Position numbers and translations under genes: made by a program. This document shows positions 15,064 to 54,032 of a stretch of 64,000 nucleotides of DNA, piece by piece. The notes beneath the pieces were generated by a model. The model made no database searches. It worked only from the letters and a program-made list of their open reading frames with translations, and was not told the DNA's origin. How positions within the stretch are numbered: position 1 is the first letter of the stretch; each line of letters starts with the position of its first letter. The DNA is taken from contig NC_017033.1 of the NCBI RefSeq assembly GCF_000242255.2, positions 1,550,001-1,614,000 of the forward strand, given 5' to 3'. The stretch is from Frateuria aurantia DSM 6220 (lineage in GTDB: Bacteria; Pseudomonadota; Gammaproteobacteria; Xanthomonadales; Rhodanobacteraceae).

Positions 15064-15897
15064 TTAGATTTCGACGGGCCTGCCGTCTTTCAGTGAGTAC
15101 CAGACATTCGGCTTGATGCCATCCTTGCCGACAACGCCTGCCCATACGTCGATGATTTCGTGGTCCTCGTTGCGCTCAACGAGGAATAGGGCATTTCCGT
15201 CTGTGCCCATGACTTTCCCCTCATAACCCGAGGCCATGGCTGCTCCCCAGTCGCCGGTCGAGCTGGCTGCGCCCCAGTCGCCGGTCGAGCTGGCTGCGCC
15301 GTAGTCGCCGGTCGAGCTGGCTGCGCCGTAGTCGCCGGTCGAGCTGGCTGCGCCCCGGTTGCCGGTCGAGCTGGCTGCGCCCCGGTTGCCGGTCGAGCTG
15401 GCTGCGCCGTAGTCGCCGGTCGAGCTGGCTGCGCCGTAGTCGCCGGTCGAGCTGGCTGCGCCCTGGTAGCCGGTCGAGCTGGCTGCGCCGTAGTCGCCGG
15501 TCGAGCTGGCTGCGCCCCAGTCGCCGGTCGAGCTGGCTGCGCCGCGCTCATCCTTGGACTGATCGCCATCCGCTTTCTTTGCCCGACTGAACGTAAAATC
15601 GATGGCCGCCTTGATGATGCCCGGCAATCCGATTTCAGCCTTGATTCCAATCTTCTCGCAGGCCAGCTTGTCGCTTTCCCGATCCACCTTCCCGGATGCC
15701 TCGATTACTGCGAAGCGTGCACCTGCGGGCGGGTAGTATCCAAACACATCGAGCGGATACTCGCAGCAGTGGAAGCCTTCGTTGCAGGCCTTCACCTCGC
15801 CTTCGTGGACATACTCCTTGCCGACCTCATACTGAAAATCTCGGCACTTGAGATCCTTGTCAAAGCCCTTGTAAGCCACGATCACTTCGTTTGCCAT
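15064..15897 (-). CDS. DUF7666-type protein with a nonapeptide repeat array
   Basis: 277 aa. The N-terminal about 65 residues ([37 protein letters not shown]) match a small domain seen in phage proteins that carry pentapeptide-like arrays. Residues about 118-220 are eleven copies of GAASSTG followed by DW, DY, NR or YQ (nine residues each), plus a degenerate GAAMASGYE copy. Such regular Gly/Ala/Ser/Thr repeats are predicted to form a beta-solenoid. The C-terminus resumes a globular fold ending [16 protein letters not shown]. The gene is flanked on both sides by leftward terminators, so it is an independent unit. Function unknown. Confidence 0.75.
15240..15543 (-). repeat. 27-bp tandem repeat array inside the DUF7666 gene
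   Basis: About eleven in-frame units of 27 bp share the constant part GCCGGTCGAGCTGGCTGCGCC (written here in two parts, GCCGGTCGAGC and TGGCTGCGCC) and differ in six bases encoding DW, DY, NR or YQ. Near-identity of units makes slippage or recombination likely, changing solenoid length without frameshift. Confidence 0.9.
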
Positions 15898-19770: not shown

Positions 19771-19992
19771 ATGACCGAAAAAGAAGAGCTTTCCGCTTAC
19801 GTCCGTGATGCGGGCGGCATCTCGTCTGCTGCGCGCAAGCTTGATATTCCATACCAGACACTCGCCGCGGTGATGAATGGCAATCGAGGCATCGGACGGT
19901 CCCTGGCCAGCCGAATGGAAAAGGGTTCTGGTGGCGTCCTGAAGGCTTCGCGCCTTATTTGGATTGCCGCTGAGAAAAAGGAGGCTGCATGA
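19771..19992 (+). CDS. Cro-like / YdaS-type HTH regulator
   Basis: 73 aa from the ATG at 19771; an in-frame ATG at 19750 would add seven residues and be almost leaderless from the predicted promoter. LSAYVRDAGGISSAARKLDI, PYQTLAAVMNGNRGIGRSLA, SRMEKGSGGVLKASRLIW is a YdaS/Cro-type HTH. First gene of the rightward early operon, opposite the repressor. Expected to bind the same operators and favour lytic growth. Confidence 0.75.
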   Translation: MTEKEELSAYVRDAGGISSAARKLDIPYQTLAAVMNGNRGIGRSLASRMEKGSGGVLKASRLIWIAAEKKEAA

Positions 19993-20043
19993 ACGCCTCT
20001 CAGCGTCAGGTCTTGTCCTCAGTCCTCCGGCTCGCCGCCGGCC

Positions 20044-20337
20044 TCAATCCTCCTCAACAGGATTGTCCTTCTCCCACTGAATGCGCTCATCGAGGATCGC
20101 GGTGTACTCGCCGGTCATCTCGGTCACGAGATCAGAAATCCCGCGTGGAATTTGTCCGCACGAAGCAGCGATCGATGCAGTGGCAACAGCTTCAGACAAG
20201 CACTCATCAATCCGACGCCGGCAGTGCGGGGCGTCGCACGTATCCATCATCAGGGCCTTGATCACCGCGTCTTGCGCGAGTGACCGCGCATAGAGATCAA
20301 GAACCAACCTCTCCAGATTCAGCTTGGTATCCGACAT
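20044..20337 (-). CDS. Hypothetical protein on the antisense strand of the early operon (97 aa)
   Basis: 97 aa with balanced, protein-like composition (LNLERLVLDLYARSLAQDAV, SEAVATASIAASC, EYTAILDERIQWEKDNPVEE); no family known. It runs against the surrounding rightward genes. Its ATG (20335-20337, minus) overlaps the next gene's ATG (20336-20338, plus) in the palindrome CATG. AGGG lies about nine bases upstream. A competing plus-strand frame from 19989 looks less protein-like. Either this is a true antisense gene or a chance frame. Confidence 0.5.
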   Translation of the reverse strand: MSDTKLNLERLVLDLYARSLAQDAVIKALMMDTCDAPHCRRRIDECLSEAVATASIAASCGQIPRGISDLVTEMTGEYTAILDERIQWEKDNPVEED

Positions 20338-20521
20338 GTACGAGAACCCTACTCATATCCGCGACAAAATCATCAAGGTTCGCCTGAACGCCGACGAGCG
20401 CAATCTCGTCGACGCATTGGCCCGCATCAACAAGACCCAGCCCTCGGTCTTCCTGAGGGACCTGGTGATCCAGGGTCTTGCTGTCGTGACGAAGGATACC
20501 CCCAAGCAGAGCGCCGCCTGA
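20336..20521 (+). CDS. Ribbon-helix-helix (CopG-like) protein
   Basis: 61 aa from the ATG at 20336. DKIIKVRLNADERNLVDALA, RINKTQPSVFLRDLVIQGLA is the strand-helix-helix pattern of RHH DNA-binding proteins. Probably a dimeric regulator in the rightward early operon. Two GGGCCC hairpins lie in the leaders of the next two genes (20535-20550 and 20726-20743) and are possible targets, but this is inference. Confidence 0.7.
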   Translation: MYENPTHIRDKIIKVRLNADERNLVDALARINKTQPSVFLRDLVIQGLAVVTKDTPKQSAA

Positions 20522-20534
20522 AGGACCCTAAATA

Positions 20535-20550
20535 GGCCCTCAGGAGGGCC
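20535..20550 (+). promoter_or_regulatory. Hairpin enclosing the Shine-Dalgarno of the next gene
   Basis: GGCCCT-CAGG-AGGGCC stem-loop; the SD GGAGG (20543-20547) lies in its loop and 3' arm, seven to twelve bases before the ATG at 20557. A related hairpin GGGCCCT-CAAA-AGGGCCC precedes the following gene (20726-20743). Translational control or an RHH operator is possible. Confidence 0.5.
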
Positions 20551-20556
20551 CTCTAA

Positions 20557-20766
20557 ATGACAGAAGACCTTCCCATCGACCTGACGCCTGCACAGGCGGA
20601 CAGGATCTCAGCGTTTGCGAAAGAACAGGGCCTGACCGTCGAACAGGCCGTTACCAAGCTGGCCCGTGAAGCGATCAATGAGCGCTACGTGCTGCCCAAG
20701 AACCGGGGATCAGTTTTGCCCATAAGGGCCCTCAAAAGGGCCCCAAGAGGTCCCTCTCATGACTGA
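20557..20766 (+). CDS. Small RHH/antitoxin-like protein (69 aa)
   Basis: 69 aa. IDLTPAQADRISAFAKEQGL, TVEQAVTKLAREAINERYVL has the spacing of a ribbon-helix-helix or phage regulatory protein. The C-terminal third (LPIRALKRAPRGPSHD) is encoded by the second GGGCCC hairpin, so protein and nucleic-acid signals overlap. It overlaps the next gene by eight bases. Function unknown. Confidence 0.6.
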   Translation: MTEDLPIDLTPAQADRISAFAKEQGLTVEQAVTKLAREAINERYVLPKNRGSVLPIRALKRAPRGPSHD

Positions 20767-21061
20767 TCGAGTCATCCATACGCCTGCATCTCGCGCCACC
20801 GATCCTGTGTCGTCGCACGACGCAGAGATGCGCGTCACGCGCTCCGGCTCCAGGCACTCCAACCGCCTCGCTGTCGTCGAGGCTGTTCGCCGCTACAACG
20901 ACGACATGACGTCTGCCGAGATTGCCCTGGCTGCGGGCCTTGATTACCACGAGGCTGCGCGCCGGCTGCCCGAGTGCGTGACAGCCGGCGATCTGAAGAA
21001 GGGTCCCATGCGCGTCTGTTCAGTGCGCGGGACTCTGGTCTGCTCGTGGGTGATGGCATGA
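20759..21061 (+). CDS. Small winged-helix-like phage protein (100 aa)
   Basis: 100 aa. The central part (NRLAVVEAVRRYNDDMTSAE, IALAAGLDYHEAARRLPECV) reads as an HTH, followed by a wing-like GDLKKGPMRVCSVRGTLVCSW. Probably DNA-binding, located where lambda carries cII, but no homology to CII can be claimed. Its stop overlaps the replication gene start (ATGA). Confidence 0.6.
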   Translation: MTDRVIHTPASRATDPVSSHDAEMRVTRSGSRHSNRLAVVEAVRRYNDDMTSAEIALAAGLDYHEAARRLPECVTAGDLKKGPMRVCSVRGTLVCSWVMA

Positions 21062-21933
21062 GCATCGAGATGATGAATGAGGTCAAGCCTCTAAAGATTG
21101 GCCCCACGCGAAAGGCCGTCATGATCTGGCTGGCCAACTGCGCCAATCATGACCGGAAATGCTGGCCCAAAATGAGCGACCTGGAGGATTGGACGAACTA
21201 CGGTCGGACGGCAATCATTGAGGCGATCAAGTCCCTCGAAAAAGACGGCTATTTGACCGTGGATCGATCGGGGCGGAACAACGTTTACACCATGAATCAG
21301 GTCCGCCAGACGGACCAGTCCGTCTCCCGGACCAGTCCGTCTCCCGGACCTCAGAAGTCCGTCTCCCGGACCTCAGGAGTCCGCCAGGCGGACCCTAACA
21401 GTAATAAAACCAAAATAACAAACGAAGAGGAGAGAGTCGGGCGCATCCAGGCGACCTCGATCTCCTGTCCCGACGGCATCAGCGACGACCACTGGTCGAT
21501 GTGGATCGCCCAGCTTCAGAGCGACGGCAAGGAATCAATCTCCCGCCTGCAGGCCGCCAAGCTCCAGGTCCTTCGCATCGTCCGTGATGGGGGCGACGCC
21601 GAGGCAGTCATCGAGGCCGCCGTGCTCCGCGGCTGGCGCGACCTGCAGGACATCCACGCCGAGATGAAAGCCAGGGCATCGGCCCGCAAAAACAATCACC
21701 AATCCAGCGCCGGCGATACGGCCGGTGGATCCAGCACCCGCACCGGAGTCAACTACCGTGGAAACCGCACATCAGGCCGCAAGCTCAGCGCTGTTGAACA
21801 GGTCGAGGCAGCCATTGCAGAAAACGAACGAGCACGAGCGGACGCTGCAGGCGCAGCATGCATCGCAGCCGAAGGCGCCGCAGACCATGGTCAATGCTTT
21901 TTGGGCGCGGATGGCGACGATGTTCGGGCATAG
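21058..21933 (+). CDS. Lambda-O-like replication initiator (HTH domain protein)
   Basis: 291 aa from the ATG at 21058. Residues about 15-80 form a winged HTH (KAVMIWLANCANHDRKCWPK, AIIEAIKSLEKDGYLTVDRS). A low-complexity linker at about 82-112 (VRQTDQSVSRTSPSPG) is encoded by the iteron array. The C-terminal part (ISDDHWSMWIAQLQSDGKES...) is helical and ends in a region that overlaps the next gene by about 176 bp. The combination of HTH, internal iterons and a P-like gene downstream matches the O/ori/P arrangement of lambdoid phages, so it should bind the iterons and recruit the helicase loader. Confidence 0.75.
   Translation: MSIEMMNEVKPLKIGPTRKAVMIWLANCANHDRKCWPKMSDLEDWTNYGRTAIIEAIKSLEKDGYLTVDRSGRNNVYTMNQVRQTDQSVSRTSPSPGPQKSVSRTSGVRQADPNSNKTKITNEEERVGRIQATSISCPDGISDDHWSMWIAQLQSDGKESISRLQAAKLQVLRIVRDGGDAEAVIEAAVLRGWRDLQDIHAEMKARASARKNNHQSSAGDTAGGSSTRTGVNYRGNRTSGRKLSAVEQVEAAIAENERARADAAGAACIAAEGAADHGQCFLGADGDDVRA
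21301..21430 (+). other. Candidate phage replication origin: five iterons and an AT-rich tract
   Basis: Five 15-bp dyads GTCCGnnnnnCGGAC start at 21301, 21318, 21335, 21357 and 21379 (spacing 17, 17, 22, 22 bp). The middle three are identical (GTCCGTCTCCCGGAC). They are followed at once by an AT-rich run (CCTAACAGTAATAAAACC, then AAAATAACAAACGAAG). They lie inside the initiator gene, as in lambda ori within O. Confidence 0.7.
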
Positions 21934-22411
21934 CTGGGTGAGCCAGTACGGCGCGAATCCTGCCGGGTTGGCGGGAGATACCTGGGGCACCGTTCTTGCT
22001 GGCCTGACTGGCGAGCAGATCGCCCAGGGCATGCGGGAGACGCTGGCACTGGGTTCCGATTGGCCGCCGAGCGCTCCGCGGTTCCGCGCCATGTGCATCG
22101 GCATCCCGTCGCTGGCCGCCACGCAGCACGCGATGCGTACCGGTGCCACCGACCCGTTTACCCGGCAGGCCTGGACCTACATCGACTCGTTCCAGTTCCG
22201 CTCGGCCGATGCTGATCAGGCCGCTCGCATGATGCGTGACGCCCACGAGCTGACGGTGCGATTTGTGATGGACGGCGGTGAGCTGCCCGCCGAGCCCGTC
22301 GCGGCGATTGCTGTAGACCCGGCGCCCGAGCATGTGCCGGCCAGTCCGGATTTTGCACGGCAGAGGATCGAGGAGATCCAGCGTCAGCTGGGTGCGGGAG
22401 AGGTGGCATGA
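21758..22411 (+). CDS. Lambda-P-like replication protein
   Basis: 217 aa if translation starts at the GTG at 21758 (GGAG nine bases upstream); the frame is open to an ATG at 21725 and an internal ATG at 21887 is possible. The central TMVNAFWARMATMFGHSWVS, PAGLAGDTWGTVLAGLTGEQ, IAQGMRETLALGSDWPPSAP, RFRAMC region is characteristic of the replication protein P family found after O-like genes. It should load the host DnaB helicase at the phage origin. The N-terminal third overlaps the initiator gene in another frame. Confidence 0.75.
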   Translation: METAHQAASSALLNRSRQPLQKTNEHERTLQAQHASQPKAPQTMVNAFWARMATMFGHSWVSQYGANPAGLAGDTWGTVLAGLTGEQIAQGMRETLALGSDWPPSAPRFRAMCIGIPSLAATQHAMRTGATDPFTRQAWTYIDSFQFRSADADQAARMMRDAHELTVRFVMDGGELPAEPVAAIAVDPAPEHVPASPDFARQRIEEIQRQLGAGEVA

Positions 22412-22614
22412 TCGAGCGCATCTCCGACACGAACGATATGTCCAGCGCAGCTGAGGAAATGGCCCGGATCGCTGCAGCTCAGTTCCGTAAGCCCGAAGGT
22501 CCCGCAGCCACCGGCGAATGCCTCAACTGCGGCGAATCACTGCCGGATGGCCTGCGCTGGTGCGACACCGATTGCCGGCACGATTACGAGCGTCGGGAGG
22601 CGATGTCCGCATGA
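22408..22614 (+). CDS. Zinc-ribbon phage protein (68 aa)
   Basis: 68 aa. The C-terminal half carries CLNCGESLPDGLRWCDTDCR followed by HDYERRE, i.e. CxxC...CxxxC/H typical of small DksA/DUF2116-like zinc proteins of phages. The N-terminal helix (SSAAEEMARIAAAQFRK) recalls the TraR/DksA family. It may modulate RNA polymerase, but the DksA catalytic acidic tip is not evident. Coupled by ATGA overlaps on both sides. Confidence 0.65.
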   Translation: MIERISDTNDMSSAAEEMARIAAAQFRKPEGPAATGECLNCGESLPDGLRWCDTDCRHDYERREAMSA

Positions 22615-22808
22615 ATATGGACGTTCTCATCTACCGGATTCTGGCAGAAATGGGTCCGATGACGATCAGTCAGATATCGACGGAACTGTCCTGCAGCAAC
22701 CGCAGTGTTCGCCAGCCTCTGGACCTTCTGGTTAATTCGGGGAAAGTATCGGCTACCCACTCGGTGAAGGGCGGATCTTACTGCGTCACCTATGAGGCCG
22801 TCGCATGA
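22611..22808 (+). CDS. Winged-helix phage protein (65 aa)
   Basis: 65 aa from the ATG at 22611. MNMDVLIYRILAEMGPMTIS, QISTELSCSNRSVRQPLDLL, VNSGKVSATHSVKGGSYCVT is a compact MarR/GntR-like winged helix without other domains. Probably a DNA-binding accessory or regulator in the nin-like region. Overlaps both neighbours by four bases. Confidence 0.65.
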   Translation: MNMDVLIYRILAEMGPMTISQISTELSCSNRSVRQPLDLLVNSGKVSATHSVKGGSYCVTYEAVA

Positions 22809-46251: not shown

Positions 46252-46832
46252 CGGCCTATGTCAGCGACTACACCGGCCTGATTACCTCCGAGCACTCCGA
46301 CAAGCCCAAATTCTCCGCAATGGTCCAGGCCATGGCGCAGTGCTGGGTTGATTACCAGAACGCCATGCAGTCGCTCGTTGATGCGATGAATCTCGACACT
46401 GCGGTCGGCGATCAGCTGGATATTCTCGGCAGGTGGATCGGCATTACCCGCAACATCAACGTGCCGATCGATGATCTGTATTTCGCCTACGACGATGTGG
46501 ATGGCATCGGGCTGGATCTCGGTATCTGGAAGACCCCGAGCGACCCAACGACGGGTGTCACCCAGATGGATGACACCACCTATCGCGCAATCCTGCGAGC
46601 AAAGGTAGGCGCAAATCACTGGGACGGCAGCATCGAGGGACTGGAGCCCATCCTTAGCGCGATCTTCAGCCCAGGCGGAACGACGGCAAAAATCGTCGAC
46701 AACGGCGACATGACCTACAACGTCAATTTGACCGGGACCGAGCCGACCAAGCTGCTCATGACACTGGTCGATGCCGGATACATCCAGTGCGTTCCGGCCG
46801 GCATGGCCGTGACCTACACCTACACCGCATAG
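46248..46832 (+). CDS. Baseplate/tail protein (DUF2612, gpI-like)
   Basis: 194 aa. YTGLITSEHSDKPKFSAMVQ, AMAQCWVDYQNAMQSLVDAM, NLDTAVGDQLDILGRWIGIT, RNINVPIDDLYFAYDDVDGI, DDTTYRAILRAKVGANHWDG, GYIQCVPAGMAVTYTYTA. Characteristic of DUF2612, which takes the place of gpI/tail-fibre adaptor in this phage group. Followed by a terminator and the tail fibre gene. Confidence 0.85.
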   Translation: MTAYVSDYTGLITSEHSDKPKFSAMVQAMAQCWVDYQNAMQSLVDAMNLDTAVGDQLDILGRWIGITRNINVPIDDLYFAYDDVDGIGLDLGIWKTPSDPTTGVTQMDDTTYRAILRAKVGANHWDGSIEGLEPILSAIFSPGGTTAKIVDNGDMTYNVNLTGTEPTKLLMTLVDAGYIQCVPAGMAVTYTYTA

Positions 46833-46858
46833 GCCCGCGTTTGAAACGCGACCCCTGC

Positions 46859-46880
46859 AGGCGCCTTTGAGGCGCCTTTA
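46859..46880 (+). terminator. Intrinsic terminator before the tail fibre gene
   Basis: AGGCGCC-TTTGA-GGCGCCT hairpin followed by TTATTG, 19 bp before the tail fibre ATG. A second small hairpin (CGCGTT..AACGCG) precedes it. Confidence 0.7.
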
Positions 46881-46898
46881 TTGTGCCCAGAGGAAACC

Positions 46899-48707
46899 AT
46901 GGCCACACTTGAAAATGATTTCTTGCCGTTCGCCACCGGATCTGGCGCCAATGTCGACGACCAGGCGACTTATGCCGATGCAGCCACGACCGGGACGGGG
47001 TTTGTGTCTGGTATCGCAAAGTCCGCGTCTGTGAACAAGGTTCTACGTCAGGCCTCGACGATGGCTGCCGTGATTGCCGCCCTGATCGTGGATAAGGCCG
47101 CGGTAGCGGTTACCGATGATGGGAGCGTGAGTACCATTGAGGCGAACCTGGTCACGGCCATTCAGGCTGTCGCGCAGGCGCTGGACTATCCAATCAGCCA
47201 GGTGACGGGTCTGCAGGCTGCGCTGAATGCGAAACTGGATGCAACGGCAAATGCCGTGTCTGCGAGCAAGCTGGCCAACACCTTCAATCTCGCCCTGACG
47301 GGCACGGTGACTGGCGCAATCAACATTGATGGATCGCAGAACGTCTCGCTGTCGACATCCATTGCCGATGCAGCCCTCTCCGAAAGCATGGTGAACGGCC
47401 TGCCGGCAGCGCTGTCCACCATTACCAACACGCTTGCGTCGGCCAGTGATGGGACGAATCAGCGTGTAGCCCTGGTTGGCATCAACATCGCCTCTGACGC
47501 ACCCTTCATGACGAGTGCGCAGAATGTCGCCTATGACCTGATCAAGTCGGCGCCAGGAAGCGGATATTTGCATGCCCGCAACCTGACCCTGGATGCCAGC
47601 GGCAACCTGATCGCTGTGGATAGCGCAGGCAATACGCGAGGTTACGGTACGAGCGCATGGGTTACCACGCAGATCAGCGCAGAGACCGCGCGCGCCGAGG
47701 CCGCCGAGTCCACGCTGACCACCAATCTTGCCGCAGAGGTGACGCGAGCCAAGGGAGTGGAGGCCACGATCACCAATACCATCGCCTCGGCTGATGACGG
47801 AACGAACTTGCGCATCGCGCTGGTCGGCATCACCAAAGCGACTGGCGTTCCGTTCATGGCCAGTGCGCAGGGGGTGACGTACAGCCTGATCAAGTCGGCA
47901 CCGGGGACCGGGTTTCTTTCGGCCCAGAATGTGACGCTGGATAGTTCCGGCAATCTGATCATCGTCGATAGTGCTGGGAACACTCGCAATTATGGCACCA
48001 TCAGCTGGGTTAACACTCAGGTTGCGGCTGAAGCAGCCCGAGCCAAGGCGGTCGAGTCAACCCTGACTTCGAACTTGGCGACAGAGACCGCGCGCGCCGA
48101 GGCCGCCGAGTCCACGCTGACCACCAATCTTGCCGCAGAGGTGACGCGAGCCAAGGGAGTGGAGGCCACGATCACCAATACCATCGCCTCGGCTGATGAC
48201 GGAACGAACTTGCGCATCGCGCTGGTCGGCATCACCAAAGCGACTGGCGTTCCGTTCATGGCCAGTGCGCAGGGGGTGACGTACAGCCTGATCAAGTCGG
48301 CACCGGGGACCGGGTTTCTTTCGGCCCAGAATGTGACGCTGGATAGTTCCGGCAATCTGATCATCGTCGATAGTGCTGGGAACACTCGCAATTATGGGAC
48401 TAGCTCCTACGGGACCATCTCCGGTGGCTACTACATCCGCATCGGAAACATCCTGATCCAGGCGTTCTCTGCAGGGGTCCTGAATGCCGGTGACTCAATT
48501 GCATTCCCTGTAGCTTTCTCTGCCGCGCCAGTGGTGTCCACGACCGTCGACAACAACCGGGACGGCGCCAATCGTCCGGTCGCCATCAATCCGACGGTCG
48601 GGACAGTGACCGCGTCGGGTTTCAAGATCAACATCGCCGCCATCTCGGGGGCGAACCAGCCGGCCGGCACCGGCCAGGTGTGGGTATTTGCCATGGGTCC
48701 TGCATAA
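46899..48707 (+). CDS. Tail fibre protein with internal duplication
   Basis: 602 aa from the ATG at 46899. N-terminal attachment part (MATLENDFLPFATGSGANVD), then Ala/Thr/Ser-rich trimer-like repeats (SETARAEAAESTLTTNLAAE). A 134-residue unit occurs in two tandem copies; 105 residues of it are encoded by identical DNA (47680-47995 and 48082-48397), and a diverged third copy precedes them. The C-terminus (YYIRIGNILIQAFSAG, FSAAPVVSTTVDNN) is a typical receptor-binding tip domain. It determines host adsorption. Confidence 0.88.
   Translation: MATLENDFLPFATGSGANVDDQATYADAATTGTGFVSGIAKSASVNKVLRQASTMAAVIAALIVDKAAVAVTDDGSVSTIEANLVTAIQAVAQALDYPISQVTGLQAALNAKLDATANAVSASKLANTFNLALTGTVTGAINIDGSQNVSLSTSIADAALSESMVNGLPAALSTITNTLASASDGTNQRVALVGINIASDAPFMTSAQNVAYDLIKSAPGSGYLHARNLTLDASGNLIAVDSAGNTRGYGTSAWVTTQISAETARAEAAESTLTTNLAAEVTRAKGVEATITNTIASADDGTNLRIALVGITKATGVPFMASAQGVTYSLIKSAPGTGFLSAQNVTLDSSGNLIIVDSAGNTRNYGTISWVNTQVAAEAARAKAVESTLTSNLATETARAEAAESTLTTNLAAEVTRAKGVEATITNTIASADDGTNLRIALVGITKATGVPFMASAQGVTYSLIKSAPGTGFLSAQNVTLDSSGNLIIVDSAGNTRNYGTSSYGTISGGYYIRIGNILIQAFSAGVLNAGDSIAFPVAFSAAPVVSTTVDNNRDGANRPVAINPTVGTVTASGFKINIAAISGANQPAGTGQVWVFAMGPA
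47680..47995 (+). repeat. 316-bp direct repeat, copy 1 (tail fibre)
   Basis: Identical by eye to 48082-48397 (offset 402 bp, 134 codons). Starts at CAGAGACCGCGCGCGCC and ends at CACTCGCAATTATGG. Confidence 0.92.
48082..48397 (+). repeat. 316-bp direct repeat, copy 2 (tail fibre)
   Basis: Identical copy of 47680-47995 in the same frame. Perfect identity implies recent duplication or gene conversion, and the copies are substrates for in-frame deletion. Confidence 0.92.
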
Positions 48708-50647: not shown

Positions 50648-50669
50648 GTGGCCCCCCCGGCAGGACTCG
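50648..50669. repeat. attR: right attachment site within tRNA-Arg
   Basis: Core CCCCCCGGCAGGACTCG (50653-50669) is identical to attL and corresponds to the 3' acceptor strand and part of the T arm of the tRNA, so integration regenerates a complete tRNA. Confidence 0.9.
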
Positions 50670-50723
50670 AACCTGCAGCTCAGACTTAGGAGGTCCGCGC
50701 TTTATCCCTTAAGCGACGGGGGG
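50649..50723 (-). tRNA. tRNA-Arg (anticodon CCT)
   Basis: 75 nt including encoded CCA. Acceptor CCCCCCG/CGGGGGG, D arm GCTT..AAGC, anticodon stem CGGAC/GTCTG with loop CTCCTAA (anticodon CCT), T arm GCAGG-TTCGAGT-CCTGC, discriminator G73. The 3' end points into the prophage, which supplied the last bases including the discriminator. It decodes AGG. Confidence 0.93.

Positions 50724-54032
<3,309 letters not shown>

Follow-up and report, generated by a model that had tools for sequence, protein, structure and literature searches.

Organization of the locus

The window, by which we mean the whole stretch of 64,000 nucleotides that was analysed, corresponds to positions 1550001-1614000 of a single 3.60-Mb contig of Frateuria aurantia DSM 6220, and it carries neighbouring phage-like genes: an O-like initiator, a P-like loader, and NinB-like, YbcO/HNH nuclease, Q-like and terminase genes. 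On the right-hand side of the phage genes lie tRNA-Leu (46826-46908), tRNA-Arg (50649-50723) and a TPP riboswitch (51058-51164); a minus-strand ORF at 15064-15897 (277 aa) contains many GAASSTGD-type units and encodes a repeat protein. The features that concern us are collected in Table 1.

Table 1. Features of the putative origin region, in coordinates of the window.
Feature	Position	Strand	Remarks
O-like replication initiator gene	21058..21933	+	291 aa (P0001); presumed reader of the dyad array
N-terminal winged helix-turn-helix domain (HTH_36)	21097..21255	+	Pfam match, residues 13-65 of P0001
Recognition helix	21205..21246	+	residues R49-D62 of P0001, starts RTAIIEA; model helix H49-62
Dyad 1	21301..21315		GTCCG-CCAGA-CGGAC, frame 0, encodes VRQTD
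Dyad 2	21318..21332		GTCCG-TCTCC-CGGAC, frame 2, encodes SVSRT
Dyad 3	21335..21349		GTCCG-TCTCC-CGGAC, frame 1, encodes SPSPGP
Dyad 4	21357..21371		GTCCG-TCTCC-CGGAC, frame 2, encodes SVSRT
Dyad 5	21379..21393		GTCCG-CCAGG-CGGAC, frame 0, encodes VRQAD
A-rich tract, candidate unwinding element	21394..21430	+	may be a degenerate version of the relatives' GAACC element
P-like helicase loader gene	21887..22411	+	likely start ATG 21887; ORF open from 21725

The initiator protein, P0001, most likely starts at the ATG at 21058, which overlaps the stop of an upstream ORF (20759-21061). It matches the Pfam family HTH_36 (PF13730; E 7.1e-12, 45.4 bits, above the gathering cut-off of 25) and two PHROG profiles for O-like replication initiation, phrog_678 (E 1.1e-16) and phrog_391 (E 4.3e-15). 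Membership in the lambda O family was considered and rejected, as the Pfam search gave no match to PF04492 (Phage_rep_O) at E<=1; nor was there a match to RepA_N at the same threshold. The loader gene matches phrog_109 (P-like helicase loader, E 2.5e-13) and phrog_1524 (E 4.6e-15).

The winged helix domain was modelled by AlphaFold2 with a mean pLDDT of 84.3. A PDB sequence search with the window protein returned general winged-helix regulators only (best E 1.9e-4), and Foldseek gave no match in the PDB at E<=0.001. Structural alignment of the model to 4pql, 4pt7 and 5kbj covers 90-91 residues, with Z-scores of 8.6-9.2, the best of which (9.2 to 4pql, rmsd 7.0, 91 residues aligned) is tied with many other winged helices. 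We take these three structures to be RepA of the pSK41/RepA_N type.

The dyad array and the A-rich tract

The initial annotation had read this part of the initiator gene as five GTCCG-N5-CGGAC dyads, spaced at 17, 17, 22 and 22 bp and followed by an AT-rich tract. The array is as described: all five dyads, at 21301-21393, are perfect and have these spacings, and the tract behind them coincides with the lowest-GC 37-nt stretch of the interval 19,900-22,700 (from 21392, GC 0.30; the five lowest-GC stretches of this length start at 21390-21397, GC 0.30-0.32). Allowing one mismatch, there are 11 dyads in the 64-kb window compared with 3.5 +/- 1.75 in 100 shuffles (largest 8), and the perfect dyads number five, every one of them inside the array. 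Close tandem dyad pairs (2 bp or 1-8 bp apart) are found nowhere else in the 3.60-Mb genome, from which a reversed control pattern is absent altogether; among 274 genomes of the class, the tandem pair occurs in the window's own genome only and the reversed control in one other.

Is it the DNA or the peptide that has been conserved? The dyads lie in frames 0, 2, 1, 2 and 0 and thus encode differing peptides (Table 1). When 21295-21397 was recoded synonymously at random 200,000 times, five dyads appeared in none of the recodings and four in three of them. Related ORFs with arrays, taken one per cluster, carry their dyads in more than one frame in 47 of 48 cases. Because the dyads of the window occupy three frames and the synonymous null never yields all five, it is the DNA, and not the peptide, that is conserved. 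The earlier suggestion that a DNA function would constrain the linker peptide of the initiator is thereby strongly supported, and such a constraint would explain the odd, repeat-rich linkers of these proteins.

Distribution of the dyad

In the bacterial family to which the window belongs, a protein match was found in 11 of 233 genomes. The dyads number 3, 7 and 3, in the same place, in three homologues from other genera that are 33-35% identical (L005, L006 and L008); of two further loci, L007 has 2 of them and L010 has 1, and four loci with the domain (L009, L012, L013 and L014) had no dyads on inspection. A protein scan of IMG/VR with P0001 gave only one relative, 100% identical over 290 residues; the protein scan of genome contigs found no relatives; and tblastn in named phages gave weak matches (23-41% identity among the 40 matches listed out of 136).

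Two tandem dyads occur at no fewer than 120 IMG/VR loci, as against 10 for the reversed pattern, and the 120 loci listed form 71 clusters. We detected the related winged helix with an iterated profile seeded with the window's domain; it is present in the array-bearing ORF at 93 among the 120 loci listed and in 48 of the 71 clusters, and no winged helix was detected in the remaining 23 of the 71 clusters from the matches listed. Only one of the 10 control loci lies in a winged-helix ORF, and that locus (L147) is an O-like gene with another helix. Library scans of the candidate ORFs, on both strands, are in agreement: HTH_36 was present in 14 of 69 (the window's own ORF included) and 14 of 60, and a single replication-initiation PHROG family matched as many as 22 of the 69 and 19 of the 60.

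A scan of chromosomal contigs for the dyad pair gave at least 117 loci (L149-L265); since only 15 among the 117 listed are in winged-helix ORFs, finding the pair in a chromosome is not by itself diagnostic. These matches inside winged-helix ORFs include records of Polaromonas, Glycomyces, Streptomyces, Stenotrophomonas and Verrucomicrobium, so use of this dyad extends over several phyla, where it presumably resides in prophages. The other 102 among the 117 listed lie outside O-like genes; many of the 80 chromosomal titles listed are of Myxococcales or Streptomyces, and another repeat family is possibly involved.

Covariation of recognition helix and iteron

If the initiator reads the dyads, then what happens to the sites when the helix changes? 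We gathered O-like genes by protein rather than by repeat, from genomes of the phylum (a profile match in 55 of 398) and from four IMG/VR scans. The profile behind the genome loci (A3) was built from the GTCCG-array proteins themselves, and the peptide patterns used in IMG/VR exclude the recognition helix. The 392 loci gave 389 with the domain, 383 with enough sequence and 340 unique regions. De novo dyad calling in these regions beat all 15 shuffles in 286, where some 21 would be expected by chance; a significant array was missing in 54 of the 340 with the simple caller that was used. At least three copies were present in 281 and odd-length dyads in 252, from which 99 representatives with less than 90% domain identity were taken.

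The arrays of this protein-first set are often of a sequence other than GTCCG, and the recognition helix (columns 38-44) predicts which. The helix GRTAVI[DEA] goes with GTCCG in 23 of 24 cases, SRRSVMN with GTGAA in 16 of 16, SKRSVMN together with SKRSVMI with GTGCA in 19 of 19, SKRAVID with GGTGC-N7 in 11 of 11, KERAVRN with CGGCA in 11 of 12, and GRSTVK[VL] with GGGCA in 17 of 19. Other helices are less tidy: SKTALLS has GTCCG in only 5 of 14, GESTVRT shows mixed registers, SERAVQN is weak (8 of 19 significant), and the calls for SRRSVMD look mis-registered. A rule for the dyad centre, S-W-S, held in 97 of 198 centres and was rejected.

Pairs of the 99 representatives were compared within bands of scaffold identity, with iterons counted as alike when at most one of the five half-site bases differs. 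At 40-70% scaffold identity, 131 of 162 pairs that differ at 0-1 helix positions have alike iterons, against 254 of 1587 pairs with three or more such differences, a contrast that was reached in 0 of 200 permutations; such pairs are not independent, because the phages are related. The same two groups of pairs gave 208 of 240 and 91 of 325 at 70% scaffold identity or above and, at less than 40%, 15 of 39 and 238 of 1626. Among pairs at 30-40% identity that share columns 39-41 the iterons are alike in 14 of 130; below 40% the helix is a poor predictor of the iteron. With donors of less than 60% scaffold identity (n=83), half-site bases were predicted at 72% from the nearest helix, 53% from the nearest scaffold and 47% from a random donor.

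Mutual information across 50 columns (60 permutations per cell) ranked columns 40, 43, 39, 44, 41, 38 and 37 at the top, with column 13 level with the seventh-ranked column 37 at the printed precision. These top columns correspond to Y47 to E54 of the window protein, that is, to the start of the model helix (49-62) and the two residues that precede it. Individual pairs illustrate the point; L420 and L430, at 86% scaffold identity, combine SERTVHA with CCGCA and GRTAVID with GTCCG, respectively, and L564 and L562, at 93%, have Arg and Lys at column 39 among a few differences, and GTGAA and GTGCA as half-sites.

Once the helix/iteron table existed, the DNA was scanned a second time, now for GTGAA-N5-TTCAC pairs. 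This DNA-first scan gave at least 120 loci; among the 120 listed, 83 are in ORFs with the domain and 37 are not. Arg occupies helix column 40 in 52 of the 54 unique domains from the matches listed (two of which are identical to domains used previously), and in 43 of the 45 that, among the matches listed, are less than 80% identical to every earlier domain. By comparison, 56 of 62 domains with GTCCG arrays carry Ser or Thr at column 40 and one carries Arg; these 62 domains, partly from the matches listed, comprise one from each of the 48 viral clusters, together with 11 of the 15 chromosomal and 3 of the 4 family loci. The GTGAA arrays lie in more than one frame in 35 of the 54, again among the matches listed.

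GTGAA-N5-TTCAC arrays also occur in proteins that the O-like profile does not match (L653, L675 and L686, among others), with linkers like SEKISP; the intragenic design may therefore extend beyond the O-like family.

Downstream of the array: spacing, GAACC and loader genes

The distances between neighbouring sites fall into clusters. In the protein-first representatives, spacings of 17 (76 cases) and 21-24 (207) predominate, with 22 cases at 15 and two at 18-20, so that the spacings of the window, 17 and 22, are the two usual values of the initiator family. A model with a single helical-repeat spacing failed in this set, given the two clusters and the group at 15. The helical-repeat fit is clean in the DNA-first set only (period 11.2-11.3, R 0.66, rising to 0.83 without spacings of 16-18), for which the search pattern itself required one spacing of 16-23.

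Arrays in relatives are followed by an A-rich element on one strand. Counting GAACC in the 99 representatives gave 92 coding-strand copies in the first 25-nt bin after the last dyad and 45 in the second; the opposite strand has 0 and 1 in these bins. Further downstream there are 1 to 6 per bin, and before the array end 3 to 14. Of the 99 representatives, 68 have at least one copy behind the array, 47 at least two and 31 none. Copies are 10-13 nt apart in 58 of 72 spacings, the multi-copy elements lie in more than one frame in 33 of 47, and two copies were found in 0 of 684 background stretches. The element follows several iteron classes, not all of them (it is also seen, for example, at L645-L649). 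No exact GAACC is present in the A-rich tract of the window.

Among the relatives' 97 downstream ORFs, the overlapping sets of matches comprise two DnaC-like loader families, phrog_50 and phrog_3277 (16 each), phrog_109 (13, P-like loader), two DnaB-like helicase families (9 and 9) and primase/helicase (11).

Proposed mechanism and alternatives

We propose that the segment is very probably a prophage replication origin, lambda-like and intragenic, belonging to the HTH_36 initiator family. The covariation of helix and iteron supports the view that the initiator's own recognition helix would read the dyads; protein and sites change together in the relatives, and so each gene seems to hold both a reader and its text. 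Mechanistically, the N-terminal winged helix would bind every GTCCG-N5-CGGAC dyad, probably as a dimer that places one recognition helix on each half-site, and the five sites, about 1.5 and 2 helical turns apart, would assemble a nucleoprotein complex. This complex may strain or capture the adjacent A-rich tract such that the strands open, and the C-terminal part of the initiator, together with the P-like loader, would bring the host DnaB helicase to the tract and allow the origin to fire. In lambda and Stx phages, O binds both the iterons and single-stranded AT-rich DNA (PMC7466680), and by analogy the initiator of the window would do the same.

Could the dyads instead be operators, through which the initiator protein or a phage repressor controls transcription? 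Palindromic sites do fit a dimeric repressor, and the PDB-listed winged helices of the P0001 fold are mostly transcription regulators. The dyads are, however, well inside the coding region, a search of 20901-22100 with up to two mismatches adds only one site (at 21580, with two mismatches), the arrays of relatives are followed by the strand-specific A-rich element, and many of the 97 downstream ORFs match loader, DnaB-like or primase/helicase families; we consider operators an unlikely explanation.

Considerably less probable still is the idea that the conserved feature is a series of RNA hairpins in the initiator mRNA, controlling translation or message stability. Each dyad could by its sequence fold into a 5-bp stem with a 5-nt loop, but in 48 arrays pairing is kept in 0 of 29 dyad variants with two changes, a further 32 have one-sided single changes, and the arm sequence is constant and tracks the recognition helix of the protein. 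Equally hard to credit is a reading in which the DNA has no role and the repeats reflect a repeated peptide or neutral tandem duplication. The linker is of low complexity, and the identity of dyad copies 2-4 makes a contribution of local duplication probable; the use of three frames here and of several in related arrays, the synonymous null, and the recurrence of the same dyad in proteins of 33-35% identity nevertheless speak against this explanation. Finally, the dyads could be partition or recombination sites, bound by a protein of the host or of the phage and lying in the initiator gene by chance. Such sites, too, are typically clustered palindromes, but a site sequence that tracks the recognition helix of the gene in which it lies makes this a very improbable reading.

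Relation to known systems and significance

The iterons of lambda differ from the dyads described here. The initial annotation had likened the segment to the lambda ori, with a distinct iteron, and the comparison holds up in every part that sequence can test: a winged-helix initiator gene contains the array in its own linker, the A-rich tract adjoins it, and the P-like gene comes next. The same order of an initiator gene with its own iterons, an adjacent AT-rich tract and a P-like loader gene is that of lambda and Stx phages, where iterons and tract lie in the middle of gene O (PMC7466680). Unlike lambda, the window has an HTH_36 protein with no PF04492 match and 15-bp dyads at 17/22-bp spacing. 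That a phage origin can lie inside a gene has been known since lambda; what we predict from sequence is such an origin in a different initiator family.

Other replicons offer partial parallels. In pSK41-type RepA_N plasmids, the origin is inside rep, the N-terminal domain binds sites that are central in its own gene, and the peptide encoded at the binding sites is dispensable (PMC5703833); the initiator of the window differs in being from a phage, in having a separate P-like loader gene and in having no RepA_N match. The origin of run-off replication in Bartonella, located in a remnant phage that causes DNA to be amplified, by its published description resembles the window in that a phage-derived O-like gene holds internal palindromic repeats (PMC3610622). 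In the PLE satellite, the DNA-binding domain of RepA and the origin covary and are swapped as modules (PMC8263062), a likeness to the pairing of initiator DNA-binding domain and iterons seen here; unlike in the window, the PLE iterons are noncoding and outside repA, and the protein family is different.

Among named phages, we inspected five of 28 matches, the Pseudomonas and Stenotrophomonas phages CUB19, PotUPM1, MD8, PseuP_224 and Itty13. All five share the initiator scaffold of the window (50-63% identity to the L005 domain), with an intragenic array, judged by eye, and GAACC repeats. They differ from the window in having a SER- or SKR-type helix and arrays of the CCCCGCA...TGC type, also judged by eye, and the 300 nt searched in each contain no GTCCG dyad with up to one mismatch.

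As reader and sites are in one gene, public phage genomes contain many paired examples of winged helix and palindrome. An intragenic origin is in itself of a known kind; it is the reader-target code that we find interesting. Helix/iteron covariation in phage initiators was not found in the titles and abstract openings of the open-access literature searched. With close scaffolds that carry different helices and different sites, the code by which this fold recognizes DNA can be tested directly, and the pairing of helix and iteron helps to locate origins in unannotated phages. Our broader, two-part proposal, for and against which we see the balance as even, is that HTH_36-type phage initiators may constitute a natural reader-target library whose specificity code can be read from genomes, and that the strand-specific GAACC element, with its 10-13-nt period, may be a shared unwinding or loading signal with a conserved reader of its own.

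The genome of the window contains a second phage-like initiator ORF (L016; G000:C1:2089297-2089527, minus strand, 389 aa). The part that it has in common with the window's initiator is the C-terminal tail only, and the next ORF is also similar. Its N-terminal part differs, and its linker contains repeated VT-rich peptides and no GTCCG dyad. The comparison suggests that front ends are exchanged along with their sites and that the tail, which may meet the P-like protein, is kept.
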